Below, piece after piece: positions 1 through 19,546 of a DNA stretch of 23,934 nt; the stretch's first letter is position 1; each line of letters begins with the position of its first letter. Both the position numbers and the translations under genes were made by a program. Below the pieces are notes generated by a model. The model was not told the DNA's origin. It made no database searches and saw only the letters and a list, made by a program, of their open reading frames with translations. The stretch is from a virus. The stretch spans positions 1 through 23,934 of the IMG/VR virus record IMGVR_UViG_3300025889_010579; one strand, given 5' to 3'.

Positions 1-661
1 GTCATCAAGGCTTGAGGCTCTCAAGCAAGTAGCAATTGATGTTAACAAGGAGTTTGCAAATGCGTTCGATATTCCTCAATCGGCGGCAATTACGTGTGTC
101 AAGCCTAGTGGGACGGTTAGTCAACTTGTTGATAGCGCCTCTGGCATACATGCTCGTCATAGCTCTTGGTATATTAGACGGGTGCGTAATGATATTAAAG
201 ACCCTATATCGGCGTTTTTGGTAGCACAAGGAGTACCTGCTGAACCTGATGTAATGAAGCCTAACGACACTATGGTGTTTAGCTTTCCTATGAAAGCACC
301 TGAAGGGGCAATTACTAGGGAGGAGCTAGACAGTTTTCAACACTTGCGGTTGTGGCTAACATACCAGCGTCACTGGTGTGAACACAAACCATCTGTAACT
401 GTGTACGTCAAAGAACAGGATTGGCCAGCCGTAGGCGCATGGGTATGGGAGCACTTTGATGAAATTAGCGGAATTAGTTTCTTACCTTGGGATGGCGGAA
501 CCTACCGACAAGCACCCTACGAAGAAGTGGACGAGGCTACTTACAATGAGTTGCTATCTGCTATGCCTGATACTATCGACTGGAATGCTTTTATTGAGCA
601 TGAGGATAATGTAGAAGGCGCACAACAACTTGCTTGTGTAGCTGGTGTCTGCGAAATCTGA
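1..661 (+). CDS. nrdJ: Adenosylcobalamin-dependent (class II) ribonucleotide reductase, C-terminal part; 5' end off the window
   Basis: Reduces ribonucleotides to deoxyribonucleotides for phage DNA synthesis, using coenzyme B12 as radical source. The frame is open from the left edge (base 2) to TGA at 659-661, giving about 219 C-terminal residues. Seen directly: the conserved ITCVKPSGTVSQLVDSASG stretch followed by GIHARHS and YIRRVRNDIKDP, then the WCEHKPSVTVYV strand, the SGISFLP segment and a QAPYEE motif typical of monomeric B12-dependent triphosphate reductases. The protein ends in CVAGVCEI, a C-x4-C pair like the C-terminal redox cysteines that re-reduce the active site in that family. 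A GTG at 182 opens a shorter reading frame but lies inside the conserved core, so it is not the start. The sigma gene overlaps the last 17 bases. Class II assignment is strong; monomeric subtype is inferred from the C-terminal motifs. Confidence 0.93.
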   Translation, partial: SSRLEALKQVAIDVNKEFANAFDIPQSAAITCVKPSGTVSQLVDSASGIHARHSSWYIRRVRNDIKDPISAFLVAQGVPAEPDVMKPNDTMVFSFPMKAPEGAITREELDSFQHLRLWLTYQRHWCEHKPSVTVYVKEQDWPAVGAWVWEHFDEISGISFLPWDGGTYRQAPYEEVDEATYNELLSAMPDTIDWNAFIEHEDNVEGAQQLACVAGVCEI

Positions 662-1154
662 TTCAGAACTTATTGAAAGGGTTATAGCGGGGGATGAGAA
701 AGCTTGTTCCCTGCTATATAAAAAATATCACATACGTTTAAAAGCGTATGTAAGGGGACTACTGCATGATACATCTTACGTTGAAGACGTTGTACAAGAA
801 ACATTTGGACAAGTGTTTAGATATTTGGCATCATTTAGGCAAGACAGTGCCTTGTTTACGTGGATGTGTACCATTGCAAAAAACATTGTATTCCGTATGA
901 AACAGCCTGTGAACGTTATTAGTAACGAAAGTTATGACATGGAAACACCTGAAACTACCATCTCAAATTTAGATGTTTTAGAGAAATGGCTAGATGAAAT
1001 GAGTGAGACACAACGTATGGTAGTAAGTTTGCATTACATGCAGGGGTTGACAGCCAAGGAAATAACTAGTATAATACCGATGAAACGCAGGGCAGTTAGC
1101 ACAATGTTGTGGAGAGCAAAGCAGAAACTGAAAGGAATGATGTATGACGAATGA
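645..1154 (+). CDS. RNA polymerase sigma-70 family factor, ECF-like
   Basis: Predicted sigma factor of 169 residues that would bind host core RNA polymerase and direct it to specific promoters. Residues about 24-89 look like region 2: a helix with YVEDVVQETF, then FRYLASFRQDSALFTWMCTIAKN, the usual ECF pattern in which FxxWLxxIAxN follows the DxxQExF helix. Residues about 112-163 look like region 4: LDEMSETQRMVVSLHY, then a helix-turn-helix around LTAKEITSIIPMKRRAVSTML and a basic tail. There is no region 1.1 or 3, consistent with ECF length. The start is GTG at 645, the only usable start after the in-frame TAG at 639; its ribosome binding site is weak, so translation is probably coupled to nrdJ, with which it overlaps by 17 bases. 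Promoter specificity is unknown. A role in switching on the late - strand genes is inference. Confidence 0.85.
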   Translation: MSAKSDSELIERVIAGDEKACSLLYKKYHIRLKAYVRGLLHDTSYVEDVVQETFGQVFRYLASFRQDSALFTWMCTIAKNIVFRMKQPVNVISNESYDMETPETTISNLDVLEKWLDEMSETQRMVVSLHYMQGLTAKEITSIIPMKRRAVSTMLWRAKQKLKGMMYDE

Positions 1155-1302
1155 AGAAAGCTATCGCATGATGATGGCATTGCGCCAGCATTTAGTGCTT
1201 CAGATTATTCAGAACAAACATCAACTAGAAGTGATATTGAAGTTTAAAACTGCAGATGGGAAACTGCATCAAATTGCAAGTAGCCATAAGGAGAGAGAAT
1301 GA
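1144..1302 (+). CDS. Small hypothetical protein (52 aa)
   Basis: Unrecognised 52-residue protein beginning MTNEESYRMMMALRQHL and ending in IASSHKERE. Reality is supported by an AAAGGA ribosome binding site at 1131-1136, seven bases before ATG 1144, and by its packing: it overlaps the sigma gene by 11 bases and its TGA (1300-1302) overlaps the next ATG (1299) as ATGA. The first half is predicted helical; the second half looks like one short beta hairpin (EVILKFKTADGKLHQIA). No cysteine, signal or membrane segment. Tight linkage to the sigma gene leaves open a co-regulatory role, but nothing in the sequence shows one. Confidence 0.65.
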   Translation: MTNEESYRMMMALRQHLVLQIIQNKHQLEVILKFKTADGKLHQIASSHKERE

Positions 1303-1487
1303 AACTAGAAGTGCTGCAAGAAAACGAGGATGGTTCAGCAGATGTTCAACTAAAAGACATTGAACCTGAGATGTTACAACTTATTTTACAAACTGGGTTT
1401 GTAAAGCTATTAGAAGATGCTTTAAATCAAGCAAAGACTAATAATAAGATTCCAGCCCTTTTAAAGGAGAAGCCTAGTGGCGATTAG
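1299..1487 (+). CDS. Small hypothetical protein (62 aa)
   Basis: Unrecognised acidic 62-residue protein starting MKLEVLQENEDGSADVQL. An N-terminal beta hairpin (residues 2-18) is followed by an amphipathic helix (about 22-46, PEMLQLILQTGFVKLLEDAL) and a polar tail. The start is well supported by an AAGGAGAGAGA ribosome binding site directly upstream and by the ATGA overlap with the preceding gene. Its end overlaps the next gene's GTG start by 11 bases. Small proteins of this shape are frequent in phage metabolic regions, but I assign no function. Confidence 0.75.
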   Translation: MKLEVLQENEDGSADVQLKDIEPEMLQLILQTGFVKLLEDALNQAKTNNKIPALLKEKPSGD

Positions 1488-1860
1488 TTACGAAGATTTG
1501 ATGAAGGTTCAGTATGGTGGCACTCACTATAAAGACTACACCATACAACCGTGGGAGATTTGGGAAGCATATAAGATGGATGCTTTTGAAGGTTCTGTTC
1601 TAAAATATCTTCTCAGATATAAAGATAAAGGTAAGCCAATCGAAGACCTATACAAGTGTAGGCACAATCTTGAATATCTCATTGCACGAGAGGAAAGGAA
1701 AGCAAATGTACGTAATCAAATACAAAAAGGGCACTCTGCCCAAAGCACTCAAGGGTCTAACGTTCAAGACCTACGACATGGCACGAACCGCCTTGAGGAA
1801 ATTCGTGCGTACCAAAGTGACGTTGAAGCCGGGACAACATCCTACGGTGGCTCAAGCTAA
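1477..1860 (+). CDS. DUF3310 family protein
   Basis: 127-residue protein whose N-terminal about 77 residues match DUF3310, a small phage/bacterial domain often annotated, without firm proof, as nucleotide-kinase-like. Visible motifs: GGTHYKDYTIQPWEIWEAY (HY plus IQPxE) near residues 14-32, then FEGSVLKYLLRYKDKG and a helix with EDLYKCRHNLEYLI, the usual G-N/S-xxKYxxRxxxKG...DLxKxxxYL pattern. The start is GTG 1477 with AAAGGAGA at 1463-1470; an in-frame ATG at 1501 has no comparable ribosome binding site and would cut into the domain. Residues after about 77 are low in recognisable structure and overlap a second gene in another frame (1706-1891), so the tail is probably constrained by that gene. 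Location beside nrdJ agrees with a nucleotide-metabolism context. The biochemical role is not established. Confidence 0.85.
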   Translation: MAISYEDLMKVQYGGTHYKDYTIQPWEIWEAYKMDAFEGSVLKYLLRYKDKGKPIEDLYKCRHNLEYLIAREERKANVRNQIQKGHSAQSTQGSNVQDLRHGTNRLEEIRAYQSDVEAGTTSYGGSS

Positions 1861-1891
1861 CTCACTAGGGTACGTTATTAGTAAGACGTAA
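1706..1891 (+). CDS. Small basic hypothetical protein (61 aa), nested in the 3' end of the DUF3310 gene
   Basis: Basic protein starting MYVIKYKKGTLPKALKGL, with a short beta strand, a helix (about residues 23-36, YDMARTALRKFVRT) and a C-terminal GYVISKT. I prefer ATG 1706 over an upstream in-frame ATG at 1670, because AGGAAAGG at 1691-1698 sits at proper distance from 1706. It overlaps the DUF3310 tail by 155 bases in a different frame. Of the two frames this one looks more protein-like here, with a hydrophobic/basic periodicity and an SD, while the DUF3310 tail is polar and repetitive. It is the last + strand gene; its TAA lies four bases before the terminator stem. No family recognised; the basic charge would allow nucleic-acid binding, which is speculation. 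Confidence 0.7.
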   Translation: MYVIKYKKGTLPKALKGLTFKTYDMARTALRKFVRTKVTLKPGQHPTVAQANSLGYVISKT

Positions 1892-1895
1892 AGAA

Positions 1896-1917
1896 GGGGG
1901 CTTATGCCCCCTTTTTT
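1896..1917 (+). terminator. Rho-independent terminator between convergent gene blocks, probably bidirectional
   Basis: Perfect 6-bp stem GGGGGC (1896-1901) / GCCCCC (1906-1911) with a TTAT loop, followed by six T (1912-1917). It lies between the TAA of the last + strand gene (1889-1891) and the stop of the last - strand gene (1919-1921). Read on the - strand the hairpin is followed by TTCTTT, so it could stop late transcription as well, less efficiently. Confidence 0.9.
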
Positions 1918-1918
1918 G

Positions 1919-4834
1919 TTATCCCTGTAAGCTTTTTAAAACCCTATCTAAGTAGTTCTTAGTTTCTCTTGCTGTAGGGTCTTTACCAACCAACACTAGT
2001 TCAGCTTGTCTTGGCCCACCGTTGTAATCAGCAATTGCTGCGGCAACATTACCACTATATTGATTTTCTAGAGTAAACTGTAAATATCTAGCAGCCGCCT
2101 CCATTGACTCAAACGGATTGAATGGGTCATGCTGAAACAAACCATTTTCTAGCTTACGAGTTGACGGCATAAACTGCATTAGACCTTGAGCACCAGCCTT
2201 ACTAGTAGCGTCTGGATTACTACGTTCGCCAGCATTTTTAATGGCTACTAACAAGTTAGGGGGCAAATCATATTGTCGCTCTAAATGCATAGCGTATAGG
2301 TCAAAACGCTTGTCGTTATACGGCACTTTGCTCCATGCCTGTTTACCTTGACTTATTAGAGCATTAACTTCTGACGCCCCATCGTTTTTGCTAGTAACAG
2401 GCATAGAAGCACCAATTTCTTTTCTAGCTGCTGCAGAGCTTCTACGTGCTAGGGTTTGATTAGACGGTTCAGCAACTGATTTCATTGCTGCATCTTGAGC
2501 TTCAAGTACTGCTTGTCCTTCAGCCATCCTACTACGTTGCTGTGCGTCATACGCCTCACGTTCAGCTTGAGTACCTGAGTAAATGCTAGGAGGCTTTACT
2601 TCACCAGTTTCATAGTTGTAATTAGTAATGCCGGGAGAGCCTTCTGCTTGCCCACGACCAGCACCTGCTTGAGGCATAAACTCATACGGCAAGTTGTTAT
2701 TAATAGCGTTTGCAATTTGAGTTGCGTGTTCAAACGGACTTTTATCAGTTACCAATGCTGGGCCATAAGCAGCCGTTATCATAATGTTTCCATACGATTG
2801 TTGAAACTGTTTGTATGCTTTCATGTCTCGCAAATATTGCATTCCTTCAGGTGTAAGCGGTGAAGTTGGGCTTCCGTTTTTGCGAATCATAAATGGTTTA
2901 GTTGGCATTGCAGCTTGTAGTGTTTTATCAGGAGCAACCATAAAATTAATTCTTGCCCCAAACTGACGTTCATACATTGCTTTAGCGTCAGCGAGGCGTT
3001 CTACAACAGCAATATTAGTTTCTGCAACTTCGTCACGTAACACAGTAAAATTTGACCCTGTAATTTTTTCAGCAATTTGTTTTTTAGTTTTATTAAAGGT
3101 TAATGCTAAACGTTGTGCTCCTACACCCGTAGCTTGTTGTTCGTTTATAGCTACTTTAATAATGTTTTTAATTTTTTTCTCTGAGTCAAGAGTTAGGGTA
3201 TTGTCAAGCACTTGTTGTGCAGTAAGCTGAACAGCTTCTACGCCAGCTCGCTGCTCTTCTACAGCTTGTTGAGCATCTTCTAAAGAAGTAAATTGAGCAT
3301 CGAAACCGTCCCCAACTTCGTATGGATTAACGTAGTTAGTATAATCTCCTACAACTCCAAGCATTGCTTGAGCAACACGTTGTTGTATATACACTAGTCC
3401 TCTTCCCATTTTTAATGAGTCAAGCCTACCGCCTAAACTACGTGAACGTTCCATGTGGTCTTTTACTATTTTATACTGATTAGGATATTGTTTAGCAATA
3501 TCTTTTTCAGCCTCACCTCCCATTGCTATAGCGGCAAGTATAGGTCTGTTGCCTTCAGTTGCAAATACATCTTGATACATTTTCATTTGAGTTGTAATTT
3601 CTTCAACAGAAGCATTTTCTTTTTGTGCAAGCGCCGCAACCATTCCAATCATAGAACCTTTTCCTGAGTATTGCTCTGTAAGGTCTTTAGCGGCTTGTTC
3701 AATTTTGGCTTTAAAAAAATCGTAGTCCTCTTTAGTGTAAGAATCACCTACTTTATTTAAGTCTGCCAGTGCTTTCTCTTTAGCGGTATTAATGTGTGAT
3801 ATCATATTGTTTGTAAAAATTTTAGCTTCAGTTTCTAAAGAACGAGCACTAATATCAAGCTTACCTGTTTGTATGCCAGTTGCAAGTTCTTTAAAAGTAG
3901 TGAGCACTGTAGGTACAGAATCAGTTGTAAACAACTGTGTCGCATATGTTTGCACAAGAGTACCGTAGCCATTTGTATCCCTTATCGCTTTTATTTCGTT
4001 CCGACCTCTAAATTGGTCAATTGTCGTTTTTTGCTGCGTAACTGCCAGTTCTGCAGTTCTTTTATTATTAGCATCATTTAAAAGTCTTCTATATTCTGGT
4101 GGATTTTCTAGTCGTAAAGCATTAACTTGAGCCTGACTAAACGGAGAATTATCTGCGATAAATTTATCTTGGTCTTGTAGTAATGCTTCAGGACTTTTAA
4201 CTCCTTTACTTCCAGTACCACCAGCACTGCCTGACCCGCCAAATCGGTCTTGAACAAACTTACGAATGGCAAATTGGTCAGCGCCAACAAGACCAGTAAT
4301 ATCGCCAATTTTTTTACGAATTTCATCTTCCATGTACGGATATTTAGCAATAGCATTTTTAGCAATTGTAGCTACTCTAGTAACAAACTCTTCGTTTTTC
4401 ATCCCACCTTCAGCCGCTTTTTTAAGACCTACTAGCGCGTTCTCATAGGTTTTTAATTGAGCGCGAGATTTTGCTCCAAAATCTTCACTATCAGCCTCAT
4501 ACCCATACATATCAGACATACCTATTTCTGCTAATCTTTGTTGTTCTTCAGCAGCAAGTCTTTGCGTGTTTAACATTTTACCTTGAGCTTCTGCAGCTAG
4601 CTGGTGGCTTTTAAAGTAACTGGCTACTGTTTGTTCTGCATTTAATCCTTTATAAGTAGTATTTTTAATGTCTTCTTCACGATAATTACTATAAACTTTA
4701 CTAGCAATGTCTGCAACTGCAGTTATACCAGCAACTTTAGCTTTTCCGCCAGCTTCAATAGCTCTAGCGGCTGATGAATAATCAACGCTAGGAACAGCCA
4801 AAGGTTGTGTTAAATCTGTTTTATAAATAGCCAT
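1919..4834 (-). CDS. Internal virion (ejection) protein with C-terminal lytic transglycosylase domain
   Basis: 971-residue protein, the last gene of the late block. Most of it (about 1-840) is helical, rich in K, Q, E and A, with heptad-like stretches, as in T7-type core proteins that leave the capsid to build a channel across the envelope. The C-terminal about 120 residues resemble a soluble lytic transglycosylase (SLT) domain: NLLVAIKNAGERSNPDATS, KAGAQGLMQFMPSTRKL, then FNPFESMEAAARYL and AAAIADYNGG, the family order GLMQxMPxT ... NPxxxxxAxxxYL ... AxYNaG. The probable catalytic glutamate is E870 within GERSNP. The enzyme would locally cut peptidoglycan during DNA entry. ATG 4834 follows GAGGGA and is one base after the upstream gene's stop. 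In T7 the transglycosylase is at the N-terminus of gp16; here it is at the C-terminus of a separate protein, so I do not assign it as gp15 or gp16. Confidence 0.85.
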   Translation of the reverse strand: MAIYKTDLTQPLAVPSVDYSSAARAIEAGGKAKVAGITAVADIASKVYSNYREEDIKNTTYKGLNAEQTVASYFKSHQLAAEAQGKMLNTQRLAAEEQQRLAEIGMSDMYGYEADSEDFGAKSRAQLKTYENALVGLKKAAEGGMKNEEFVTRVATIAKNAIAKYPYMEDEIRKKIGDITGLVGADQFAIRKFVQDRFGGSGSAGGTGSKGVKSPEALLQDQDKFIADNSPFSQAQVNALRLENPPEYRRLLNDANNKRTAELAVTQQKTTIDQFRGRNEIKAIRDTNGYGTLVQTYATQLFTTDSVPTVLTTFKELATGIQTGKLDISARSLETEAKIFTNNMISHINTAKEKALADLNKVGDSYTKEDYDFFKAKIEQAAKDLTEQYSGKGSMIGMVAALAQKENASVEEITTQMKMYQDVFATEGNRPILAAIAMGGEAEKDIAKQYPNQYKIVKDHMERSRSLGGRLDSLKMGRGLVYIQQRVAQAMLGVVGDYTNYVNPYEVGDGFDAQFTSLEDAQQAVEEQRAGVEAVQLTAQQVLDNTLTLDSEKKIKNIIKVAINEQQATGVGAQRLALTFNKTKKQIAEKITGSNFTVLRDEVAETNIAVVERLADAKAMYERQFGARINFMVAPDKTLQAAMPTKPFMIRKNGSPTSPLTPEGMQYLRDMKAYKQFQQSYGNIMITAAYGPALVTDKSPFEHATQIANAINNNLPYEFMPQAGAGRGQAEGSPGITNYNYETGEVKPPSIYSGTQAEREAYDAQQRSRMAEGQAVLEAQDAAMKSVAEPSNQTLARRSSAAARKEIGASMPVTSKNDGASEVNALISQGKQAWSKVPYNDKRFDLYAMHLERQYDLPPNLLVAIKNAGERSNPDATSKAGAQGLMQFMPSTRKLENGLFQHDPFNPFESMEAAARYLQFTLENQYSGNVAAAIADYNGGPRQAELVLVGKDPTARETKNYLDRVLKSLQG

Positions 4835-4835
4835 G

Positions 4836-7800
4836 TTAATCCCTCTTGTCTGTGTTTACAACTAAATCTTGTACTTGCCATTGATTAATTGCTTGGTCTA
4901 AAATAAGTTCCCTTACCTTACTTTCTTTCCATCCTGTAAACAATTGCTTTTGCAATTGAATTCTATCTTGACCTGTGTACGTATTTAAAATCATTTTAAC
5001 TACGTTTTTGTACACTTCGTAAGAAGCTTCATCTTTGTTTTTTAAAGCAGTAAGTGCTTGCAATTGAAAAGCCCGAATATTTTTTGCAGCATTTTTAATA
5101 TCATCATCGTGCCTACGTTTACTTGTGTATAAAGCAGTTAAATCTGCTTCTGCTACAGTAGTAAAGCCAAGTGCTTTTGCATACACTTCGTAATCAGACA
5201 ACGTATACAAAGGGCTACCTGATGAACTATACGCAATGTTGTAGTTAGTGAACATAACACGTGCTTTTTCAGCGTTACTAAATGATGATAGCGTAGATGT
5301 TGCGAATACTTTAGCAGCTTCTTGCAAACTTGCTGGAGTTAAATCATTAGCAACAAACACATCCCAAGCTTTTCCAACACCTCCAAACAATCGTAAAGCA
5401 GCAAAACCACCGGGGCCACCTAGTACTTCTAACCAATTTTTTTCTGGATTCATAAAGCCATCAATAATTTGTTCATAGTAAGCAAATGTACCAAACCGTG
5501 TTCCCACTGCAAGTTTAAGTTGACCATCTGTTACATGAGATATTAAACCAGCAATTAAACCTTGTTGCGCTGTTATTGCTTCATCTTGTGTCATATCTTC
5601 AGGAAACATGTTTGTAACAATGTCTCTAAAAGGCCACAAGAAAGTGCCTGACGTACCCATCATAAGCGAGTGCATTATTAGTAACTGTACTGCTTCAACT
5701 CCAGTAAACGTTCTGCTTTTTTTGCCCGTAGCTAAAGCTCCAATGCTAGACAATAAACTCATAGCAATTTTTATTTGATACTGCGTAAACTGCATTGGAA
5801 TAGACAGTATACCTCGTTGCCACCAGTTTTGATTAGCCATAGTCATGTTTTGAGTCAGGTCATCTTGTCGCCGTAACATTGTTGACAAAGCATCATCTGT
5901 CCAAAATGCACCCCCTTTGTTAGCAGCCATCCATTCACGACGAGCAATGTCAAAACTAACAATGCGACTTAAACCTTCACCAGCGTTAAAAGGAGCAGCA
6001 GACACTTTACTACCTCTACGTCTCCATTTATTAAACAAACCATAAGTGCCAGTTGATGCTCCATACAAACTTGATGTGTTCATACCATCTAATAAACCAG
6101 AGCGTTTTAACATGCGAATTGTTTCTACAAACTCATCTACGCTCATTCCCAATCCCAAGTTAGTAAAGTTGTTTGCTTGTGCAATTTTACGCCAAATAAC
6201 TTCTTGGTCACTGGCTAGCGCCATGCTATAAAACAAAGCTGTCTTAGCGGCCTTTAAACCGTGTATAGGGCTAATAGCAATAGCGTTAAAAGTATTCATG
6301 CCTTGCATTACAAACTGCACAGGGTTTAATCCAAAATAAGAATGGAATGCAAATGTTCTAGCCCATTGAGTGTAATTTTGCGTAGAACGCATTGCTAGAC
6401 CTGTTTTAAGAATAGCTTTGTTAGTTGAACCACCTTCAAACCATTCACTAATTTTTCTTGTAAAGCCAATCATTGCTTGTTCTTCTTTAGTTGCAATATT
6501 CATTTGGCTCATAATGTAGTCTTGCACTTGTTTAGCAAAAATTCCTCGTTTATCTAAAGCTAAATAAGCACCTTTATTATTTAACATGTATCTAAATGCA
6601 TCTTCTGGAGACATTTCTTTTACATTTCTTGGAAGAATGTCTTGAAAAGATTGAAACCAACGAATAACATGCGACTCACGCCATTCGTGACTAGAAGCAA
6701 CAGCAGCCGTATTACCAATTTCAGCAGCAATAGCATCCATAGGATTAACCGTGTTTACCGTGTCATCTCCATAAATAGACAACACCCTATCGCCACGTTG
6801 AGAAGCAAAGTTAGAAGACATGCCTACTTGAGTGTTTGCCCAATCATCGTCCGTTCTATTGTAAACAACGTATACTTTAGGGTCAATGCCAAAAGCTTCA
6901 TTATCTAGTTGAGCAATAATCTCGTCAGGATTCCAACCATATTGTTCTAACAACTCACTTGCTTTAGTTCTAGTAAGGTTGCCTTCTTTATGAAGTTTAA
7001 TTGCAGTGCTAAAGTTTTTAATATATTTATCTGCTTCCCCACGACTTACAGCAGTGCGGTGAGTCATTGCTTTTACGTTTTTAACTTCACCGTCTATGTT
7101 TCGTGCAGAGTCAATTTTAATAAAATATTCATCAGAATAAATTCGCCTAAACTCTCCCTTACGGTATGGAATAGCGTCTTTTACAGCACCTACTTCTACA
7201 TCCTCACGTTTAATTAATATGCGTGTAAATGACTTATCTCCTGTAGTAATAGCGTCAGGCATTTCAAATGCACGATATGTACCGTTATTAACGTTATTAA
7301 TAACATCGTCAGACACAGCTACAAATTGATTTGTTTCTTGGTCAAATATCTTCATGCCTTTAGTAAGAGAAGCTTCTTTAGCAAAAAGAACAGTTTGACC
7401 TTCAATGGAATTTTTTAAATTAAGCTGAGAAAACCCTCTGCGAGTTAAACTTTTAGCAGCAACATCGTTACGAATTTGATGCATAATGTCGCGTAATGCC
7501 CGAACTCTAAAGTAAGCGTTACGTGTTTTTGAGTTTAACTGCATACCTGCAAGTTCTGTGTCAGAAAACACTTTACCTTCTTTATCACCTTTTACAAGTA
7601 CATCGGTTAATTTTGACTTTTCAACTCTGTTTAAAGACTCAACATCTTTGCGAACAAAATTAGTTAACAGTTTTTGATACCTGCTTTGTTGCATAATACC
7701 TGTAAGCCTGTTTGTGTACAGTTCGCTAGACGTAGCTAAAGCACGGTCTGCAGTAAACACTGTGGAGGCGCTATTAATATCGTCATCTGCATACTCGGTA

Positions 7801-10517
7801 ATAGCTCTATCATACGTAACAGTTTCAGTTATATTTTGCTCAACAAGATAGCCTGAACGAGCACCATCACGTGCACCTTTAATAGCTTCCAATTCTAAAT
7901 TAATTTCATTAAGCTCTGTTGCCATTGAATCAATACTACGCCCTGCTCCAGCAGATTCGCTAGCTATACGTGACAAATTTTGTTCAGTAGTTATTTTACC
8001 TTGTTTAACAAGTTCTACATGCCTGTTTAACATGCGAGCAATTTGTTTATTAGCATCTACTGCAATAGCAATGTTTTTAAAACGTAGTGTTTCGTATACG
8101 GCTTGTGCAATTTTTTTAAATTCAACTACAAGTTTTGCAAAAGCTTGTCCTAAAATTGTAGTTGGCACTTCGTCAGTAAATGCCCACTTAGCAAAATTCT
8201 CTGCAAAAAATTCGCTGTATTTAGAAGCCCATTGATGGATGTTTTTTTCAAGTTTTAAATAATGTTCGTAATTTCCACCCATCCAATCGTCAATCCACTC
8301 AGACATGTCTTGAGTTGTTCTGAGACTTCTATATTCTAACAAAGCTTCCATTGGAAATATGTCGTTAACATTTTGACCACCAACAACAGAAGTTAATTTT
8401 AATCCTTTTGTTTTTAGCCAATCTTGGAACGCAGTACGCATAGCCGACGCATATTTCATTTCAAATGCAGCTTCAAACGCATGACCATACTCGTGTGCGA
8501 GTGTGTCCATCACGTCAGTTAACGTTGCTTTTCTAACAGTTTTTCCCTGTTTAATTGTGTCGCCTACATCAAATGCTAAGTAAATAACACTTTCGTTTGG
8601 CCCCACTGCAAAATGCACTCCCTTAGCACCTGAGTGCGCTGCGTCAATTTCTGCTTGCAACCTACTAGAAACACTTTTATTACCGCTTCCCAATAAATCT
8701 GACCTAGTAATTACAGTAATTTTTCTACCGTCAAGTCCTAAAGCTGCTCCCATTTTTACGGTAAACTCAGATATAGCTACCTGAGCATTTTTTACACCTA
8801 CAGCTACATTACCTTGCCTAAGTAATTTATTGTTTTTACCTGCTTGTTCTAATGCACTCGTAAGAGTTTCTCTGCTTACTGCTTTTTTAACAGGAGCAGT
8901 TGTAGTTACAGCGGATTGTCCAGTAACAGTTTTTCCAATGCTAGGCGCAAGATTAGTTACTTTAAGACCATTAACACTTACTTTTTCTTCTACAGTTTTT
9001 TTAGCTGCCTTAATAAGTTCTGCTTCAAGAGCAGCTTTTTTAAGTTCTAATTCTTTAACTACAGTTTCTTCTACATAAAACTTAGTATTTGTAGTGTCAG
9101 GAACAACACGGAAATTACCTACGCCGCGAGGGTCAATGTTTTTAATAAATTCTGATGCAGCTTTTTCAGTAAGAAAACTGTTACTAGTAGCAGGTTTATA
9201 AACTACTCTTCCTTTTACAAAAGTTCCGTCAGTAGTAAACGGGTCTATTGTGTGTATGTTAGGGTTTTTAACAGGAGAATATTGTGCTTCTAAGTTTCGT
9301 AATGCAGCTTGTACTTCTTCTGGTCGAATGTTTTTAGCAGATTGCGTTTCTTTAAGTGCAGCAATAACATCGTCTACATCTTTAGTAAGGATAGCTTGAA
9401 AATCTTGAGAAGCCATTTTAACAGATGTAGGAAGTAATTTAGATGCGCTCATAGACACAAGTTTACCTAAATCAATAGCAGCACTAATTCCAGATAGTTC
9501 TCCAGCTACTGCTCCTACTGCTTGCAGTTGTTGTTTACGTGCAACTTGCCCAACAAGTTTAGCAGTTTCTCCTCGTGCAATTTCATTTTTACCACCAACT
9601 TTTGCTAGTGAATGCTCAGTGTTTAAAATTTCTCTAGATGATTTAAAAAGTTTAATTGCTTTACCTGCAGCAAACATCCATCCAGCTACTGTTCCAACAA
9701 CACCAAGTCTATCTAACCAATCATCTAAACCACCAATTTCAACGTCTTCTGGCCCAGCTACTTCCATTGCAATAAATGCTGCTTGCCATTTACTAATGTA
9801 GGTACTATTAGTTAAATCATTATATAAATTAGTAAGCCATTGGCCTTTGTCTTTTTCATCTAAGTTTCTATATACAAGTTGTAATTTAGCGCGAGTTTCG
9901 CTACGACCAGACAAAAAGTTTACGTTATCTACGTCATATTTTTTAGCAACATCGTCAATAGCTATTCCTTGTACAGCAGCTAACGCAGTAAATTCATAGC
10001 CAAATCCTTTTGCAATTGACCACGCACTATTACCATCCTCAATAATTTTTTCTAACGCTGTTTTAGCAGATAGTTCTTGCACACCCTCAGTAATTATTTT
10101 ATCAACTTGTTCTGGAGTATTTACTTCAATGTTAACATAATTTCTGTATAACAAATTTTCAATAGATTCTTTTGCTACTTCTGCAAGTTGAAAACGCAAC
10201 TCAGCTTGATTTTCAATTTTAGCTTTATCAATCATTTGTTGGCGAAGACGAATGTTTGTCATTTCAGTCTCAACCATATTTATGTCAATAGGATTGGAAA
10301 GAATTTGTGCAGATAGTTGATTTTGATAAGGCACAGTTTCCGCCCATATTTTATGTAGGTGCGTATTAAAATTAACTTTTTCTTCTTCAGGTTGTTCACC
10401 AGTTGCTAGAACGCCCATTCCTTTTAAATACGTATAATTACCAACGCTTGTATCAGGTTGGGTTTCTTCTGGAGTTTGAGGAAATAGTGGTTCTTGTGCG
10501 TTAGTTTCAAAATCCAT
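4836..10517 (-). CDS. Giant internal virion (ejection) protein with HEYGH zinc-peptidase motif
   Basis: 1893 residues, the largest gene in the window, lying between a gp14-like gene and the transglycosylase-bearing core protein; position and size fit a T7 gp16-type ejection protein (T7 gp16 is 1318 residues). A hydrophobic segment lies near residues 268-290 (VVGTVAGWMFAAGKAIKLF). Residues 675-679 read HEYGH, the HExxH zinc-binding and catalytic signature, preceded by VMDTLA; about 90 residues later comes SEFFAENFAKW, where E769 or E773 could be the third zinc ligand as in gluzincin-type peptidases. The C-terminal third (from about 1300) is rich in aromatic and hydrophobic helices (GLNPVQFVMQGMNTF, QFTQYQIKIAMSLL, LLIMHSLMMGTSGTFLW), suggesting membrane contact. 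No transglycosylase motif was found in it. Start ATG 10517 has AAGGAT upstream. Ejection role is inferred; peptidase activity is a motif-based prediction. Confidence 0.82.
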   Translation of the reverse strand: MDFETNAQEPLFPQTPEETQPDTSVGNYTYLKGMGVLATGEQPEEEKVNFNTHLHKIWAETVPYQNQLSAQILSNPIDINMVETEMTNIRLRQQMIDKAKIENQAELRFQLAEVAKESIENLLYRNYVNIEVNTPEQVDKIITEGVQELSAKTALEKIIEDGNSAWSIAKGFGYEFTALAAVQGIAIDDVAKKYDVDNVNFLSGRSETRAKLQLVYRNLDEKDKGQWLTNLYNDLTNSTYISKWQAAFIAMEVAGPEDVEIGGLDDWLDRLGVVGTVAGWMFAAGKAIKLFKSSREILNTEHSLAKVGGKNEIARGETAKLVGQVARKQQLQAVGAVAGELSGISAAIDLGKLVSMSASKLLPTSVKMASQDFQAILTKDVDDVIAALKETQSAKNIRPEEVQAALRNLEAQYSPVKNPNIHTIDPFTTDGTFVKGRVVYKPATSNSFLTEKAASEFIKNIDPRGVGNFRVVPDTTNTKFYVEETVVKELELKKAALEAELIKAAKKTVEEKVSVNGLKVTNLAPSIGKTVTGQSAVTTTAPVKKAVSRETLTSALEQAGKNNKLLRQGNVAVGVKNAQVAISEFTVKMGAALGLDGRKITVITRSDLLGSGNKSVSSRLQAEIDAAHSGAKGVHFAVGPNESVIYLAFDVGDTIKQGKTVRKATLTDVMDTLAHEYGHAFEAAFEMKYASAMRTAFQDWLKTKGLKLTSVVGGQNVNDIFPMEALLEYRSLRTTQDMSEWIDDWMGGNYEHYLKLEKNIHQWASKYSEFFAENFAKWAFTDEVPTTILGQAFAKLVVEFKKIAQAVYETLRFKNIAIAVDANKQIARMLNRHVELVKQGKITTEQNLSRIASESAGAGRSIDSMATELNEINLELEAIKGARDGARSGYLVEQNITETVTYDRAITEYADDDINSASTVFTADRALATSSELYTNRLTGIMQQSRYQKLLTNFVRKDVESLNRVEKSKLTDVLVKGDKEGKVFSDTELAGMQLNSKTRNAYFRVRALRDIMHQIRNDVAAKSLTRRGFSQLNLKNSIEGQTVLFAKEASLTKGMKIFDQETNQFVAVSDDVINNVNNGTYRAFEMPDAITTGDKSFTRILIKREDVEVGAVKDAIPYRKGEFRRIYSDEYFIKIDSARNIDGEVKNVKAMTHRTAVSRGEADKYIKNFSTAIKLHKEGNLTRTKASELLEQYGWNPDEIIAQLDNEAFGIDPKVYVVYNRTDDDWANTQVGMSSNFASQRGDRVLSIYGDDTVNTVNPMDAIAAEIGNTAAVASSHEWRESHVIRWFQSFQDILPRNVKEMSPEDAFRYMLNNKGAYLALDKRGIFAKQVQDYIMSQMNIATKEEQAMIGFTRKISEWFEGGSTNKAILKTGLAMRSTQNYTQWARTFAFHSYFGLNPVQFVMQGMNTFNAIAISPIHGLKAAKTALFYSMALASDQEVIWRKIAQANNFTNLGLGMSVDEFVETIRMLKRSGLLDGMNTSSLYGASTGTYGLFNKWRRRGSKVSAAPFNAGEGLSRIVSFDIARREWMAANKGGAFWTDDALSTMLRRQDDLTQNMTMANQNWWQRGILSIPMQFTQYQIKIAMSLLSSIGALATGKKSRTFTGVEAVQLLIMHSLMMGTSGTFLWPFRDIVTNMFPEDMTQDEAITAQQGLIAGLISHVTDGQLKLAVGTRFGTFAYYEQIIDGFMNPEKNWLEVLGGPGGFAALRLFGGVGKAWDVFVANDLTPASLQEAAKVFATSTLSSFSNAEKARVMFTNYNIAYSSSGSPLYTLSDYEVYAKALGFTTVAEADLTALYTSKRRHDDDIKNAAKNIRAFQLQALTALKNKDEASYEVYKNVVKMILNTYTGQDRIQLQKQLFTGWKESKVRELILDQAINQWQVQDLVVNTDKRD

Positions 10518-10526
10518 TATTTATCC

Positions 10527-11057
10527 TTATGCTAGTAGTTTGCCAATTTTTTGGTATCCACCAACACTGCCAAAAATAGTTTCTGTAATATCCCCAATAG
10601 CGCCGTACGTAGCAGCATCTGTGCCATACTTTGCTGCTTGTAAACCAGCTTCACCTATTTTTGTATTCATAGCTACCGTTTGATTTAGCTCGCCAATACG
10701 CCCTCCAGTTTGAGATATAGTAGAAGCAATGCCACCAGACAAACCACTACTACCCGCACCACCTGTTTGGTAAGCTTGATTTAACATTTGAGCTTGAGCT
10801 AGTCGTTGTTGTCGTATTGCTGCACGTGTTGCACGAACTTGTTGTATGTTAGCTTGTGTTTGTTGTAATTGAAATTGTTTTTGATAAGAAGCTTGTTGTT
10901 GTTTTAATGCTCTTTGCTGTGAAATTCTAGCGTCAACACTAGCGCCTAAAGTTGCTCCTAATAGTGCTCCACCAATAGCACTTAGTCCAATACTAGCTCC
11001 TAAAGCAGAAGCTCCCAAAGCGTAACCACCTATAGCTCCAACTACGAGAAATGGCAT
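10527..11057 (-). CDS. Internal virion protein, T7 gp14-like
   Basis: 176-residue protein with a long Gly/Ala-rich hydrophobic N-terminus (residues about 3-42: VVGAIGGYALGASALGAS and following), a Gln/Arg-rich helix (about 50-100, ISQQRALKQQQ onward) and a Gly-rich C-terminal half. That architecture, together with its place after a gp13-like gene and before two giant core proteins, matches T7 gp14, the smallest ejection protein, which forms the outer-membrane end of the DNA channel. I place the start at ATG 11057, since AAAAGGAGAT lies seven bases before it; an in-frame ATG at 11075 lies inside the previous gene and ahead of that ribosome binding site. Only three bases separate the genes. Family membership is inferred from composition and order, because gp14 proteins diverge fast. 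Confidence 0.75.
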   Translation of the reverse strand: MPFLVVGAIGGYALGASALGASIGLSAIGGALLGATLGASVDARISQQRALKQQQASYQKQFQLQQTQANIQQVRATRAAIRQQRLAQAQMLNQAYQTGGAGSSGLSGGIASTISQTGGRIGELNQTVAMNTKIGEAGLQAAKYGTDAATYGAIGDITETIFGSVGGYQKIGKLLA

Positions 11058-11058
11058 T

Positions 11059-11352
11059 TTATATCTCCTTTTCAAATAACATTACATTTTCTATTTGGTC
11101 AACAAAAACAAAATTATATTTTTTAGCAAACTTTTTTAGATAAGGTTCATTATCTGCTGGCAAAACATAATATGACCATAAAGTAGAAATGTTATTTTGT
11201 TTTAATAACTCAGTTAATTTTTTCATTTCATCCATCATTTTGCGATTTGCTTTTGCATTCCACTGTTTAATGTGATGATGAAAAAACGGCTCATTGTTTC
11301 TCCACTCAATACCTAATGCAATTAAATCATCTTCGTACACTACATCAAACAT
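11059..11352 (-). CDS. T7 gp13-like protein, GNAT-type acetyltransferase fold, short
   Basis: 97-residue protein between nozzle and gp14-like genes, exactly the T7 gene 13 slot. Its body (residues about 27-97) resembles my recollection of T7 gp13: a basic helix (QWNAKANRKMMDEMKKLTELL), then TLWSYYVLPADNEPYLKKFAKKYNFVFVD and a final hydrophobic strand (VMLFEKEI), parallel to gp13's A-x-R-K helix, TLW-NYV strand, FLK helix and C-terminal strand. This is the C-terminal half of a GNAT-like fold. T7 gp13 is about 138 residues; here the N-terminal part is cut to about 25 residues, so a complete acyl-CoA site looks unlikely. In T7, gp13 is needed for normal virion assembly but its biochemistry is unclear. 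The start ATG 11352 overlaps the nozzle stop by eight bases. Confidence 0.7.
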   Translation of the reverse strand: MFDVVYEDDLIALGIEWRNNEPFFHHHIKQWNAKANRKMMDEMKKLTELLKQNNISTLWSYYVLPADNEPYLKKFAKKYNFVFVDQIENVMLFEKEI

Positions 11353-14300
11353 TAGTACTTCCTACAAATGTTCCTGTCCAACCAACAATGTTAAAATCAT
11401 GCCCAGCTTTACTTTCAAACTTAAACTGCACTGCTTTACCTCTACCGCGCATTTTTGATTTACTAACAACAAGCGGATAACCGTCATCAAAAGTAGTTGG
11501 AAATGAGGGTATAATATATGCTCGTGGTTGCCTGTATACTTCTACTGGAGTTGACCATTTATTTGTAGAATATTGGTCTGTAAAATCCCATTGCAACGAC
11601 ATTTGAACACTGCCCGGATTAATTAATTCTCCTACGTCATCTACACCTGTTTCCGTGCGTTTAATAAATGTAGATAAATACATTCCAGTTTTATTTCGCG
11701 CAGGGCCAACATCACCTAACTCGTACCCTGTAATAACGTATGCACTTTGTTCTATAGCAGAACCTGATATAGAATAAAAATCTTTATACGTAGTATCAGA
11801 ACTTCTAGTATTTAAAAAATCTGCAAAACAAATACTTATGCCATTATCAGTAACAGTATTAGACCAGTTGTTTATTTGTGTTGATTCTTCAGGCATATCA
11901 TACCACAAATCGTCCCATCTTAAATAATATTGACCCGGAGTGCCAGTATATACACGTGTTATTTTAACAAAATTCCATTTTTCATTTGCATAATAATTAC
12001 CATTAGACGTACTATCTAACTGAGAATTTGTAATAAAAGTAAACGGGCTAGTACCGTCTTGAGGAAAAGCGTCTGCATTAAGATATTGTTCTGAAGAAGT
12101 ATAAGAAAAATCACGATATATTGTAGATAGTTTATAATTTTCTTGTAGTTGTAAAACTAAAAATCTTTGGTTGGAAGTTGCTTCTTGAGAATTTGTAGAA
12201 TATAAATAAACAAACTCACCTTTAGATTTAGTAATAAATGCAAAAGCATTTAAATAAACTTCATTGCTACCAGAACCATACGAACCGTCTATAGCCACAT
12301 TCTCAGAAGTATGAGTAGTAAGAACGCCTACGTCATAGTTAACTGCTTCTGCTAGCGTTAAAGGATACGTATACAAATAAAGTGTATAATTAACAGCATC
12401 AGGAGTGTAATTCCAAGCAGTATTTAAAAATGCATTGCCATTGTCATCAGTAATAAATTCTAAATCATGATGTAACACTTTTCTAGAAAGAATTCCTAAA
12501 GAATATAATACAGTTTCTAAAGTAACAAACGAACCTATTGTTGATAAATCATATCCAGTAGTTATTGGAAAATATCCCCAAATTACTTCAGTAGAATCGT
12601 TTTTAAGAGCAGACACATATAATCTTGTTCCATCTTTATTAAAAACTACAGCTTGCGCTCCAAAATTAGTAGGCAATAATGAACCTATACAACTAGAACC
12701 AAGTTCTATCGTATATTGGTCACCAGAATTTTGGTTATATAAACATAATGTACTTGTAAATGTGTTATTTGGATAATAAGAAAACCATGAGCTTAATGTA
12801 AAATATATGTGTTCAAACTGTCCTGTACGTTTAAACTGCATTACTCTAAATCTATCGTCACCACTAGCAGTTTGTGTATAAGGAGTAGAAAAATTTATTT
12901 CATCACTATACAAAGCGTAATTGCTAGTACTAGCAAAAAGAAGTTCACCACTTTTTTTATAATTGTAAACAATTAAAAATTTAAACTGTTGATTATAATA
13001 TTTGTTATCTATTACCGAAGCAGTAACAAGTTCGTCAGAAGAATTTTCTACCTCAGTTAAACTGTTATTAGTAACTGTTTCTTCAATTACTGAAGAAGGT
13101 TCTGTAGAAGTTAAAAATATAGATGCTACGTATTTTTCAGTAGATGTTTCATTATTAATTGGATTAAAAGAATGAGTGTAAAAACAAGTTAGTGTTCTAT
13201 TAAAAACTAATAAAGAATTGTTTCCATATAAATTTGAAGTTTCATCTTCTAGTTTAGAAGAATTATATAGCCACATAACTTCATTAGTAGAAGGATTGTA
13301 AACACCTGTAACATATTGTTTTCCAGAAAAAGGAATATTATTGTACAATGTTTTAATTGTTTTATCACTCATGTTGTCTACTTTATATTCTAGCCCAACA
13401 TTACTAATAACATAAATACCATCAGTAGCCCAATAAATAACATTACTTTCTACAGTTACAATACTATTGCTAGCAATACATCCTACGTTAGTTATTTTTT
13501 CTACTTGATAATTATTTGCACTAAAAACTGAATCAATACCACTAATGTTATACACACCATTAGTTGCAAAAACTAAAAGACCTTTACCTACTGCCACTAA
13601 TTTTTTAATTTGCCCTGCTTCAGGAATTTCAATTACTCCTCCATCGCTATCTAACACATCAGATGCAACTTCAGACGTAGGGTCATTTGCTTGGTAACAA
13701 TTACCAAGTTTATTTGTATTATCTAGCACTTGAGAAAAAAGAACTCTACCACTCATTGTGCCTTGTAATCCTGCGTACCAAGCTCTTCCTGCAAAAAATC
13801 CTACTTGAGTAGGTCTATAATCATATTGAGTAGTAAATGTAATTATAGCTGTTCTTTCTTGATAAAATAAATCAAGAATTGTTCGTCCTTTTGCTGCGTT
13901 GATACTGCCAAAATCTTGTTTATTTAAAAGAGCAGGGTCAAAATTATCACTAGCATCTTTACCATAAATCCACATTTTGCTGTTAGCAGGAAGTTTACTT
14001 GAGTTAGCTGTTTTATATGGATTAATTTGACTATCTGTCCATCCTTGATTATATAAATTGTATAGTGCTCTATTATAACCATCTGAAACACCTAAATCAT
14101 TATAATAAGTGTTCCATTCTGCTTGAGTTTTTTCTACAGATGTAGCAAGACCAAAAGTATCAATGCCTTCAAAATCTCTAATGCTAAGTGAAAAAGGAGT
14201 AATTATAAATTGACTACTTGTATTTTTGTGTTCTATACGTATAGGAGTTGTAACATTAGAAACAATAATAAGTTGCCCGTTAACTACAGCAAAACTACAA

Positions 14301-14737: not shown

Positions 14738-14740
14738 AGT

Positions 14741-15001
14741 TTAGCGTATTACACCTTTCCATTTGTGTTCATTTATGTCACGCAAACTAGTTCCAGCAGT
14801 GGGATAACCCCCTCGTACTCTAGGTCTTGGTTGTGCCCTATAGTTTCGTGCATAATCATTTTTAGCTTTAACTACAGCTTGTTTAGTTTGTGCTTCAGTT
14901 TTTAAAAGCTCTGCTATTTTGCCCATCCATGCTTTTTCAAAATTGTTAAGACCATCATACGAAACTTTTTTACCATTTGGTTTTGCTGTATATGTTGGCA
15001 T
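14741..15001 (-). CDS. Small basic protein, downstream copy of a tandem paralogue pair (86 aa)
   Basis: 86-residue protein with no recognised family. Its last 48 residues (from TKQAVVKAKNDYA to NEHKWKGVIR) match the neighbouring 78-residue protein at 38 of 48 positions, while the first 38 (MPTYTAKPNGKKVSYDG...) are unrelated. The shared module is basic, with an AKNDYAxNYRAxPRxRVRGGYP core and an invariant LRDxNEHKWKGVIR end. ATG 15001 follows AAAGGAAC at a good distance. Location between adaptor and nozzle suggests a virion or assembly role; function unknown. The conserved C-terminal end and free N-terminus would suit a targeting or docking tail, which is inference. Confidence 0.75.
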   Translation of the reverse strand: MPTYTAKPNGKKVSYDGLNNFEKAWMGKIAELLKTEAQTKQAVVKAKNDYARNYRAQPRPRVRGGYPTAGTSLRDINEHKWKGVIR

Positions 15002-15013
15002 AGTGTTCCTTTC

Positions 15014-15250: not shown

Positions 15251-15260
15251 ATCTTTCCCC

Positions 15261-15419
15261 TTATTTACCTATTTTAGGCATGTGGCGTTTCTTTTTATTT
15301 TTATTAACAAGTTCTTCTACTTGTTCCATTGATTTTTTTTTACGCAACGCACGTTGCATGGCATCTCCACCTTTAAGAGTAGATTGCAATGCTTCTTTAA
15401 TTTTTTTTGCTTTAGGCAT
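15261..15419 (-). CDS. Small basic hypothetical protein (52 aa)
   Basis: 52 residues starting MPKAKKIKEALQSTLKGG and ending in KNKKKRHMPKIGK; more than a third are Lys/Arg. The open frame reaches back to 15491, but that part lies wholly within the preceding gene and has no ribosome binding site. A GGAGG-like sequence just before the tandem ATGs at 15422 and 15419 fixes the start; the second ATG has better spacing and yields the MPKAKK start. It overlaps the upstream gene's last bases (CATGATGCCTAA). Probably one or two amphipathic basic helices that could touch nucleic acid; no family recognised. Confidence 0.65.
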   Translation of the reverse strand: MPKAKKIKEALQSTLKGGDAMQRALRKKKSMEQVEELVNKNKKKRHMPKIGK

Positions 15420-16366: not shown

Positions 16367-16368
16367 TT

Positions 16369-17025: not shown

Positions 17026-17058
17026 AAAAAAATGGGGAGAGAGGCTACACCCCTCCCC
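17026..17058 (-). terminator. Rho-independent terminator downstream of the capsid genes
   Basis: On the - strand a 9-bp stem GGGGAGGGG (17058-17050) / TCTCTCCCC (17042-17034), with two G-U pairs and a 7-base loop, is followed by A and seven T (17032-17026). It lies in a 53-base gap, 14 bases after the stop of the capsid-adjacent gene. Its position is comparable to the terminator that follows gene 10 of T7, where it limits expression of later genes relative to the capsid. Confidence 0.85.
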
Positions 17059-17069
17059 CCTGTTACACC

Positions 17070-17548: not shown

Positions 17549-18505
17549 TTAGATGGTGCTCTTGGTAATGACGCCAACCAGACACTCAGGACGGTACAGC
17601 TTCAAACCAAAACGAGCGTTCATCACATACTCGTCACGGCGCAGGTCTTTGTTGCGCTCGTATTCAACACGAGGCAATTGACGATAAGCGCCAACGAACG
17701 GGGTAAGGTCGCCACCAACAGACATAAAGATGTTGGTAACAGGAGCAGCAGGAACCGAAACACTGTCGATGGTCGTGTCGGTAGGTGTAGCCAAGAAATT
17801 GGACACATACACATCAAAACCAAAGATGTTACGGATGAAACGCATACCCGTTACTTCGTTCACAAAACCACCATTTACAATACCACCAAAGGCGGGGTTG
17901 TTCGTGAAGGCTTGTGCGCCAACGAGGTTGTTAAACACATACTCTTGCGACGGGTCAATAATAGCAACACGAGTGCCACCAGCTTGAGCCTTGTCCAAAG
18001 CATATTTAGCTTTAGCAAAGTCGTCTAGCGCCAACACAGTGTTTGACGAACCCGAAGCCACAAAACGGTGGTCAGCACCGTTAATTTCATTGGTGTTGTT
18101 CACCGTTTGCGTGTTAGCCAAAGCAAACACAGAACCTTCAAGGTTCTCGTCCAAAGCGCGGCGCATTTTGGTTGGGAACATACCAATCAATTGTTGCGAA
18201 TAATAACTATCCTGCTTGGCTTTATCCGTGATGAAAGTAGCAGCCTCAACGTAGCGGTCGATGCTAAAGGTGAACTCACCAGTATCCATCGAATCATACG
18301 TAACAGGCGTATTTTCAGCCACTTCACGCATCGGCAATTCGCCAACAGAAGGAATGTTAAACGTATTCCCGTCAGGAAAACCATTGAGCATACGAACATA
18401 CTTCGTGCCCATTAGTTGTTCTTGCAGGATGTCTTTTAGTTCAGATGACCAGAGTTCAGTGCGAACCAGATGGTCATTGACTTTTGCATAATCAACACCA
18501 GCCAT
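17549..18505 (-). CDS. Major capsid protein, HK97 fold
   Basis: 318 residues. The sequence follows the capsid pattern of short-tailed phages: an N-terminal helix region (WSSELKDILQEQLMGTKYVR), an E-loop-like part with GNTFNIPSVGELPMREVAE, the long spine helix region (MFPTKMRRALDENLEGSVFA), a P-domain with DDFAKAKYALDKAQ and RVAIIDPSQEYVF, and a C-terminal A-domain (GFDVYVSNFL, RDEYVMNARFGLKLYRPE). It forms the icosahedral shell around the scaffold gene's product, which is encoded just upstream. The ribosome binding site AAGGAGATATAA is near-perfect, and the codons are noticeably richer in C/G at third positions than the surrounding genes, as expected for the most abundant virion protein. No N-terminal maturation-protease domain and no protease gene are seen here. 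Confidence 0.93.
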   Translation of the reverse strand: MAGVDYAKVNDHLVRTELWSSELKDILQEQLMGTKYVRMLNGFPDGNTFNIPSVGELPMREVAENTPVTYDSMDTGEFTFSIDRYVEAATFITDKAKQDSYYSQQLIGMFPTKMRRALDENLEGSVFALANTQTVNNTNEINGADHRFVASGSSNTVLALDDFAKAKYALDKAQAGGTRVAIIDPSQEYVFNNLVGAQAFTNNPAFGGIVNGGFVNEVTGMRFIRNIFGFDVYVSNFLATPTDTTIDSVSVPAAPVTNIFMSVGGDLTPFVGAYRQLPRVEYERNKDLRRDEYVMNARFGLKLYRPECLVGVITKSTI

Positions 18506-18515: not shown

Positions 18516-19247
18516 TTATCGACCAAAATATAGGTCGGGGTTTTTAGTAACAGTTTGTTGCAACTTGTATTGAAACTCTTGTGACCAGTACATTTCAGGG
18601 TTTTCCTTACGGATTTTAGCAGCCCATTCTTTAGTACCTTCAACAGTGTCACGAGGTGTTCCGCTATACGTTACAGACGTAGTATTTGCAGAGCCAGTAT
18701 CTATGTTATTAGTAACAGCAGGTGTTCCTGCAAACAAAGACACAAATTCTGCGGGGTCAGTTGCAGCCAATTCCATCAAGATTTTTTGTTTCTCAGGAGT
18801 GTTAGCTCGTTTTTGAAACACTTCTCCTGCTTTTTCACCAAACTTTTCTTTCATAAGTTTGTCTGCCATAAGCAAGTTTTGATTCTTGGTTTCAGAGGCT
18901 TTTCTACCCTCTAACGTTCTATCTACAAGTTGTTGCACATCTTCTGGGGTTAACCCTGAAACAGTAGGCTTGTCTGCCTCTGGTGCTGGTTCCTGTGTAG
19001 TGATACGTTCAAGCACTTCATCAATGGTTTTAGCTTGTGCTACTTGCTGACGTAGTTGTTGATTTTCCTCTTTCAAGGTGTTAATAAACTGGTCAGCATT
19101 TGCATAGGCTTTTGCCAAATCTTCCGGGCTTTTATATTTTTGTTTTTCACCAACAAGGGCGTTAAACAAAGACGCTTCAGTTGTCGCTTCAGCAGGTTCT
19201 GCAGATTGGTCGTCTGCTTGATTATTAAAAATAGTAGCATCGGTCAT
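18516..19247 (-). CDS. Capsid scaffold protein
   Basis: 243 residues, acidic N-terminus, mostly helical. Residues about 35-75 carry YKSPEDLAKAYANADQFIN followed by a coiled coil (LKEENQQLRQQVAQ), the signature arrangement of short-tailed phage assembly scaffolds, then a Pro/Glu linker and a second helical part with EKFGEKAGEVFQKRAN. A final segment (MYWSQEFQYKLQQTV) could bind the capsid. Scaffolds guide procapsid assembly and leave before packaging. The gene is immediately upstream of the major capsid gene with a ten-base gap; AAGGAGAAAAGC precedes ATG 19247. Upstream is a 47-base gap, the second-largest in the late block. Confidence 0.87.
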   Translation of the reverse strand: MTDATIFNNQADDQSAEPAEATTEASLFNALVGEKQKYKSPEDLAKAYANADQFINTLKEENQQLRQQVAQAKTIDEVLERITTQEPAPEADKPTVSGLTPEDVQQLVDRTLEGRKASETKNQNLLMADKLMKEKFGEKAGEVFQKRANTPEKQKILMELAATDPAEFVSLFAGTPAVTNNIDTGSANTTSVTYSGTPRDTVEGTKEWAAKIRKENPEMYWSQEFQYKLQQTVTKNPDLYFGR

Positions 19248-19294
19248 GCTTTTCTCCTTATATTATTTGCTTAGAGTCAAAAAAACACAAAAGT

Positions 19295-19546
19295 TTACAT
19301 TTTAGCTGATTTTGGCAAAATAGAGATAATATAGTCTATTACCTTTACTTGTCCCATATTATACGCTAGTTTAGCGTAATGGTTAGGGCAATCAAAATCA
19401 TCTTTTGTAATACTATTTACTTCTTCTTTTAAATCCACCAATACCTTGTACAGCGGTTCTAAAGTGTACCCAGCATTTTCCCACAGTTTTTTGTATTCTT
19501 CTGTAGATGTATCACTAGGTTTATTTTTAATAAGTTTTAAATTCAT
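19295..19546 (-). CDS. Hypothetical protein between portal and scaffold (83 aa)
   Basis: 83 residues starting MNLKLIKNKPSDTSTEEYKK. Mostly helical: EEYKKLWENAGYTLEPLYKVL, VDLKEEVNSI, then NHYAKLAYNMGQVKVIDYII. One cysteine (CPNHY), no signal or membrane segment. The ATG at 19546 overlaps the portal TGA as ATGA (19543-19546), so it is translationally coupled to the portal. Small unassigned genes at this place are common in podovirus genomes. No function assigned. Confidence 0.75.
   Translation of the reverse strand: MNLKLIKNKPSDTSTEEYKKLWENAGYTLEPLYKVLVDLKEEVNSITKDDFDCPNHYAKLAYNMGQVKVIDYIISILPKSAKM

Follow-up and report, generated by a model that had tools for sequence, protein, structure and literature searches.

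An ECF-type sigma factor gene overlapping nrdJ and two predicted late promoters suggest a late-transcription switch in an uncultured clade of Zobellviridae

Introduction

Late phage sigma factors that work with the host core RNA polymerase are already known from Escherichia phage phiEco32 and Salmonella phage 7-11. In 7-11, the early genes are read with host sigma70, and the two-part late promoters, mapped by experiment as GTAAtg-16-aCTA, are read by the host core together with the phage ECF-like sigma factor gp47 (PMC8948821). An earlier in-silico prediction from 2015 had given TGATGT for this phage (PMC4331800), and its difference from the mapped promoters shows that predictions of this kind can fail. 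Phage 7-11 belongs to the Grimontviridae, has eight promoters, and carries its sigma gene in the arm opposite the late block, not joined to nrdJ. In phiEco32, gp36 is likewise an ECF-like sigma factor that uses the host RNA polymerase; it serves middle and late genes, acts with the inhibitor/activator gp79, and reads a single-element promoter, tAATGTAtA.

Sigma factors have also been annotated in the early arm of some Zobellviridae, namely gp21 of Salinivibrio phage CW02 and its counterparts in the oyster Zobellviridae PQ867839 and PQ867840, where the gene lies beside or between those for primase/helicase and DNA polymerase. On the bacterial side, E. coli sigmaE (RpoE) and Pseudomonas AlgU share the two-domain ECF fold and an AAC-type -35 element, but are host stress regulators held by the anti-sigma factors RseA and MucA. 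The literature searched contained no papers on promoters or sigma factors of Zobellviridae.

Here we analyze a stretch of 23,934 bases, an IMG/VR virus record that we call the window, together with its relatives. The original prediction for this DNA was that a sigma factor encoded at the end of a ribonucleotide reductase gene could be the switch for the late genes on the opposite strand. Our analysis makes that role very probable, with two predicted promoters as its targets.

Results

The window encodes an ECF-type sigma factor

Both sigma regions that had been read from the sequence, 2 and 4, score above curated cut-offs in the product of the sigma gene (Table 1): Pfam Sigma70_r2 (PF04542) with an E-value of 1.3e-9 (38.1 bits, cut-off 24) and Sigma70_r4_2 (PF08281) with 5.8e-8 (32.7 bits, cut-off 25.7). 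NCBIfam TIGR02937 (sigma70-ECF) matches at 3.9e-18 (65.6 bits, cut-off 42.9). Regions 1 and 3 are absent and the linker of the 169-aa protein is short and flexible, as in ECF sigma factors. The AlphaFold2 model (mean pLDDT 77) consists of two helical domains with a disordered linker (pLDDT <50) between them; Foldseek ranks E. coli sigmaE first among its matches. The closest relatives of solved structure are Pseudomonas SigH/AlgU (3.5e-16) and, again, E. coli sigmaE (4.6e-15). Among five close relatives (the window and contigs L002-L005), dN/dS for the gene is 0.02-0.20, indicating purifying selection. Profile matches and dN/dS together speak for a genuine coding gene that is maintained by selection; the reading as an artefact or chance ORF was ruled out by the profiles, the conservation and the dN/dS values. 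At the level of sequence, the product is thus confirmed as an ECF-type sigma factor with regions 2 and 4.

The protein is not a close homologue of the described phage sigma factors from the phiEco32 and 7-11 families. It is 19% identical to gp47 (hhalign 96.7% with the family profile), and gp36 aligns with it in region 2 alone, and weakly (hhalign 73%). The CW02 and oyster sigma factors are 24-29% identical to it and sit on a separate branch. Nor were the best bacterial matches informative about a source, as they reach just 24-29%, in Lachnospiraceae and Dysgonamonadaceae genomes. A cognate anti-sigma gene beside an ECF sigma gene is typical, but not universal, and no anti-sigma was recognized in the phage. 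A 52-aa ORF that overlaps the 3' end of the sigma gene possibly encodes a partner protein.

Table 1. Features of the window (positions count from its first base).
Feature	Position	Strand	Remarks
nrdJ, 3' part (adenosylcobalamin-dependent ribonucleotide reductase)	2..661	+	219 aa in window; TIGR02505 6e-26; phrog_367 3e-58
Overlap of nrdJ 3' end and sigma 5' end	645..661	+	17 nt; position kept in clade
ECF-type sigma factor gene	645..1154	+	169 aa, GTG start, open ORF
Sigma protein layout			sigma2 about residues 5-85; linker 88-108; sigma4 about 109-168
52-aa ORF overlapping sigma 3' end	1144..1302	+	about 52% conserved, against about 31% for sigma
Hairpin GGGGGC-TTAT-GCCCCC-TTTTTT between convergent early and late arms	1893..1918	+	read from sequence
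Strong terminator-like hairpin directly after capsid unit	17034..17060	-	same gap in 10/10 members compared, sequence changed
Major capsid gene, downstream of predicted promoter	17549..18505	-	phrog_267 2.5e-31
Scaffold gene, first downstream of predicted promoter	18516..19247	-	position and conservation
Predicted late promoter ATGTAAACTTTTGTGTTTTTTTGACTCTAAGCA	19268..19300	-	-35 GTAAAC 19298-19293; -10 CTCTAAG 19276-19270; 20 nt before scaffold ATG

The phage belongs to the Zobellviridae and no T7-type polymerase was found

TerL of the window matches Methylophilales phages MEP401/402 at 57% and Cobavirinae at 52-53%, and its MCP matches SIO1, P12053L and ICBM phages at 46-49%. By these two proteins, with MEP401/402 and Cobavirinae (CRP-5, SIO1) as nearest named relatives, the phage falls into the Zobellviridae, in an uncultured clade for which the phage collection searched holds no close named isolate; assignment to the Autographiviridae (T7 proper) was ruled out on the same grounds. 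The clade consists of uncultivated aquatic viruses of bacteria. As befits the family, the early and late arms are opposed. MEP402 and CRP-5 share the opposed layout, and their nrdJ lies towards the end of the early arm, but they lack the sigma gene, as do ctOsX, ICP2, SIO1, P12053L, T5S1, GX1, VP41s3 and Vibrio phage 1.015.O.

The original prediction would have been contradicted by a single-subunit RNA polymerase with matching promoters upstream of the late genes. A PF00940 search covered the window and ten longer clade contigs (34-46 kb) and found no polymerase of this type; run on T7 as a positive control, it recovered the polymerase at 1e-110. The clade records are fragments by IMG/VR class, several of which span both arms. 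The phage thus resembles phiEco32 and 7-11 in carrying an ECF-like sigma factor with no phage RNA polymerase found. The contrast with T7-type phages that had been drawn at the outset is less sharp than proposed, because the Zobellviridae are a T7-supergroup family whose tested members have no phage RNA polymerase. Similarly, the view of an ECF-like sigma factor as the rarer way to take over transcription has to be set against the well-studied precedents gp36 and gp47.

The sigma gene occupies a conserved slot at the end of nrdJ

The GTG start lies inside the 3' end of nrdJ, as originally read, and since nrdJ stops at 661 the two genes share 17 nt. From predicted starts, the overlap is 11-17 nt in the clade. 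Every clade contig with TerL of at least 80% and a readable nrdJ end has a sigma gene overlapping the nrdJ stop, and the same holds for L102 and L105-L108, which were found via nrdJ; a sigma factor is also contained in two further clade records, G053 and G054. The overlap suggests that the sigma factor is co-expressed with nrdJ.

A perfect sigma70 consensus (TTGACA-17-TATAAT) lies at 1047-1075 on the plus strand, within the codons for sigma region 4, and L002-L005 have kept it. It may be a promoter for the three small ORFs that follow, or may have arisen by chance. A consensus scan of window positions 1-20000 gave 45 sigma70 sites, fewer than the mean of 58 in shuffled sequences, and is therefore uninformative on early promoters.

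Two further observations concern other clade members. Six perfect DnaA boxes (TTATCCACA/TGTGGATAA) lie within 400 nt (L016, about 4800-4930, minus strand; in L003, the divergent region), with about one expected per 34 kb. Most other clade members did not show this cluster, which is possibly a replication origin that uses host DnaA. The G002 contig (L016/L017) has two adjacent early genes at 31665-34186 in window orientation, coding for a 580-aa protein and an AAA-type ATPase, which by position and look are candidates for a CobT/CobS-like pair such as that annotated in ICP2.

A two-part element precedes both late blocks

Upstream of the scaffold and capsid genes, on the late strand, the clade keeps a gap of 47-54 nt that contains a two-part, ECF-like element, GTRACRTTTT-N12-CWCTAAG (also written RRGTRACRTTTT-N12-CWCTAAG), 20-27 nt before the scaffold ATG. 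In the subclade of the window it reads GTAAACTTTT-N12-CTCTAAG, with AAC in the -35 and a short -10; AAC in the -35 is typical of ECF promoters. The window has a single exact match to ATGTAAACTTTT-N12-CTCTAA; allowing up to three mismatches yields two matches, against 0.11 expected.

The element is found again 25-62 nt before the tail fibre gene (start MAKLTLNTIGSRYGS or similar), the first of the late genes, in 11/11 contigs that cover the divergent region. For the window's own record this site falls outside the window and was read in L003 (TerL 99%); contig 3300007960_000333 has both late sites. The second copy bears on the reading of the element as an RNA or translational signal in the scaffold leader, for which a short hairpin that could form around CTCTAAG in several members, 20-27 nt before the ATG, might be cited. 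That hairpin is not kept across the clade, the two blocks stand at a fixed spacing around a variable middle as in a promoter, and the element is repeated in front of a gene unrelated to scaffold, at a different distance, which makes an RNA element very unlikely. We refer to both copies as predicted promoters.

Some of the surrounding sequence deserves separate mention. The roughly 40 nt (CTTAAAATTATCTCATAAAAATTATTGCTTGGGGGGTAT; L281, 5417-5455) that immediately precede the late -35 of the tail fibre gene do not differ between four contigs, although the DNA beyond them does, and are possibly an UP element or activator site. In the scaffold gap of L048, a contig too short to reveal presence or absence of a sigma gene, an extended -10 of sigma70 type, TGGTATAAT, stands just upstream of the scaffold at 5532 instead of the clade motif, and ICP2, which has no sigma gene, has an annotated sigma70-type promoter at the same scaffold position. 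Both contrasts are suggestive.

The motif is specific to the clade and varies together with the sigma factor

The scan proposed at the outset, for a shared -35/-10 motif before the late block, did find one, and this motif is specific. Across 2.9 million IMG/VR contigs, RGTRACGTNT-N13-CWCTAAGSC has 34 matches, all 34 in the clade at the two late positions, 24-26 nt before the scaffold or 33-43 nt before the tail fibre, many of these sites coming from close relatives and hence not being independent. As a control for spacing, a spacer one base longer gave six matches, five of them unrelated and one in a clade member whose spacer really is one base longer. The window-type ATGTAAACTTTT-N12-CTCTAA has 12 matches: one is unrelated, and the other 11 lie at the two late places in the subclade of the window. 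Each phage's own scaffold site was also used as query. In 9/9 phages the best other match in the contig was the site before the first late gene: of 19 informative positions it agreed at 17-19 in eight phages (next best 13-15) and at 14 in G031, level there with one other position. The search space was about 50,000-92,000 positions, and as the 19 positions were picked after the sites had been seen, exact probabilities should not be drawn from these scores.

Beyond the clade, nothing above background was found in the sigma-less MEP402, CRP-5 and ctOsX, and the more distant L256/L257 have neither the scaffold gap nor the motif. The clade motif did not turn up in the other sigma-bearing Zobellviridae CW02, KZY1 and T2S2 either, which counts against the late-switch reading. 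In these three, a motif shared between scaffold gap and divergent region was no better than in shuffled sequence, and no late motif common to the CW02/oyster group and the window clade was found.

Within genomes, the two copies change together. Both are GTAAACTTTT in L003, GGGTAACGT with CACTAAG in G050/G045, AAGTGACGTTT in G013 and AGGTAACGTTTTT in G052, and when divergent sites were reassigned to wrong genomes, equal similarity was reached in 2/720 permutations. The split of the -35 into GTAAAC and GTRACR follows the split between two sigma lineages, in both copies of a genome. This covariation ties the motif to the sigma factor better than co-occurrence alone, although close relatives do not count as independent cases.

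The same data bear on the question of which sigma factor reads the motif. With AAC in the -35 and TCTAA in the -10 it looks like a sigmaE promoter, and the nearest solved relatives of the phage protein are host sigmaE/AlgU, so that a host ECF sigma of the sigmaE/AlgU type might read it and leave the phage protein another job, such as control of early or host genes. Against this stand the restriction of the motif to the sigma-bearing clade, the -35 that differs between the two sigma lineages in both copies per genome, and the failure to find another conserved target for the phage protein. We consider a host reader unlikely and infer that the phage sigma factor itself recognizes the two sites.

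The sigma factor is less conserved than its surroundings

Between the window's subclade and other subclades, the sigma proteins are 27-36% (about 30%) identical, compared with 77-80% for nrdJ, 80-84% for TerL, 83-90% for MCP and 79-81% for the portal. In the sigma tree, which has long branches, the window protein is not firmly joined to those of the sister subclades (p-AU 0.051), a result compatible with replacement or with fast divergence. Taken by themselves, the low identity and the loose joining would also fit a host gene that was acquired recently and has no regulatory role in the phage. We regard this as highly improbable: the slot is kept across the clade, dN/dS is low, and the motif covaries with the sigma factor. 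The nrdJ slot may have swapped whole late-transcription specificities, with ECF sigma factors replacing one another and both late promoters rewritten to match. We put this forward as a tentative idea, on the doubtful side of plausible.

Discussion

Together, our data suggest a model in which the phage sigma factor is very probably the late switch and acts on two late promoters of the opposite strand. Host sigma70-holoenzyme would first read the early (plus) arm, and with it nrdJ and the gene for the sigma factor, which would be translated from its start within nrdJ. It would then bind the host core RNA polymerase and steer it to the two copies of GTRACRTTTT-N12-CWCTAAG, of which one is predicted to serve the tail fibre as first late gene and the other the scaffold and capsid genes. 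Core binding and timing in this model are inferred by us, as is the identity of the reader. With a sigma factor and a matching start signal before exactly its two late blocks, the virus probably redirects the host polymerase and does not rely on an enzyme of its own. The late role proposed in the original prediction is now well supported, through the two-site motif, its specificity and its covariation within genomes, all of them computational results.

The closest tested parallels are phiEco32 and 7-11; in 7-11, the two-part promoters upstream of late genes resemble the element described here, and the sigma gene also lies in the arm opposite the late block. The paired changes of sigma factor and promoter among the relatives amount to a natural data set on how ECF sigma factors read the -35 and -10. 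If the swap of specificities is true, a viral sigma factor and its two-promoter regulon evolve together as one exchangeable unit. A small orthogonal sigma factor with a two-promoter regulon could also serve gene control. For Zobellviridae such as SIO1, which have no T7-type polymerase, we found no published account of late-gene control in the literature searched; for one uncultured aquatic clade of the family, the sigma factor and its exactly two predicted promoters offer a concrete and testable answer.
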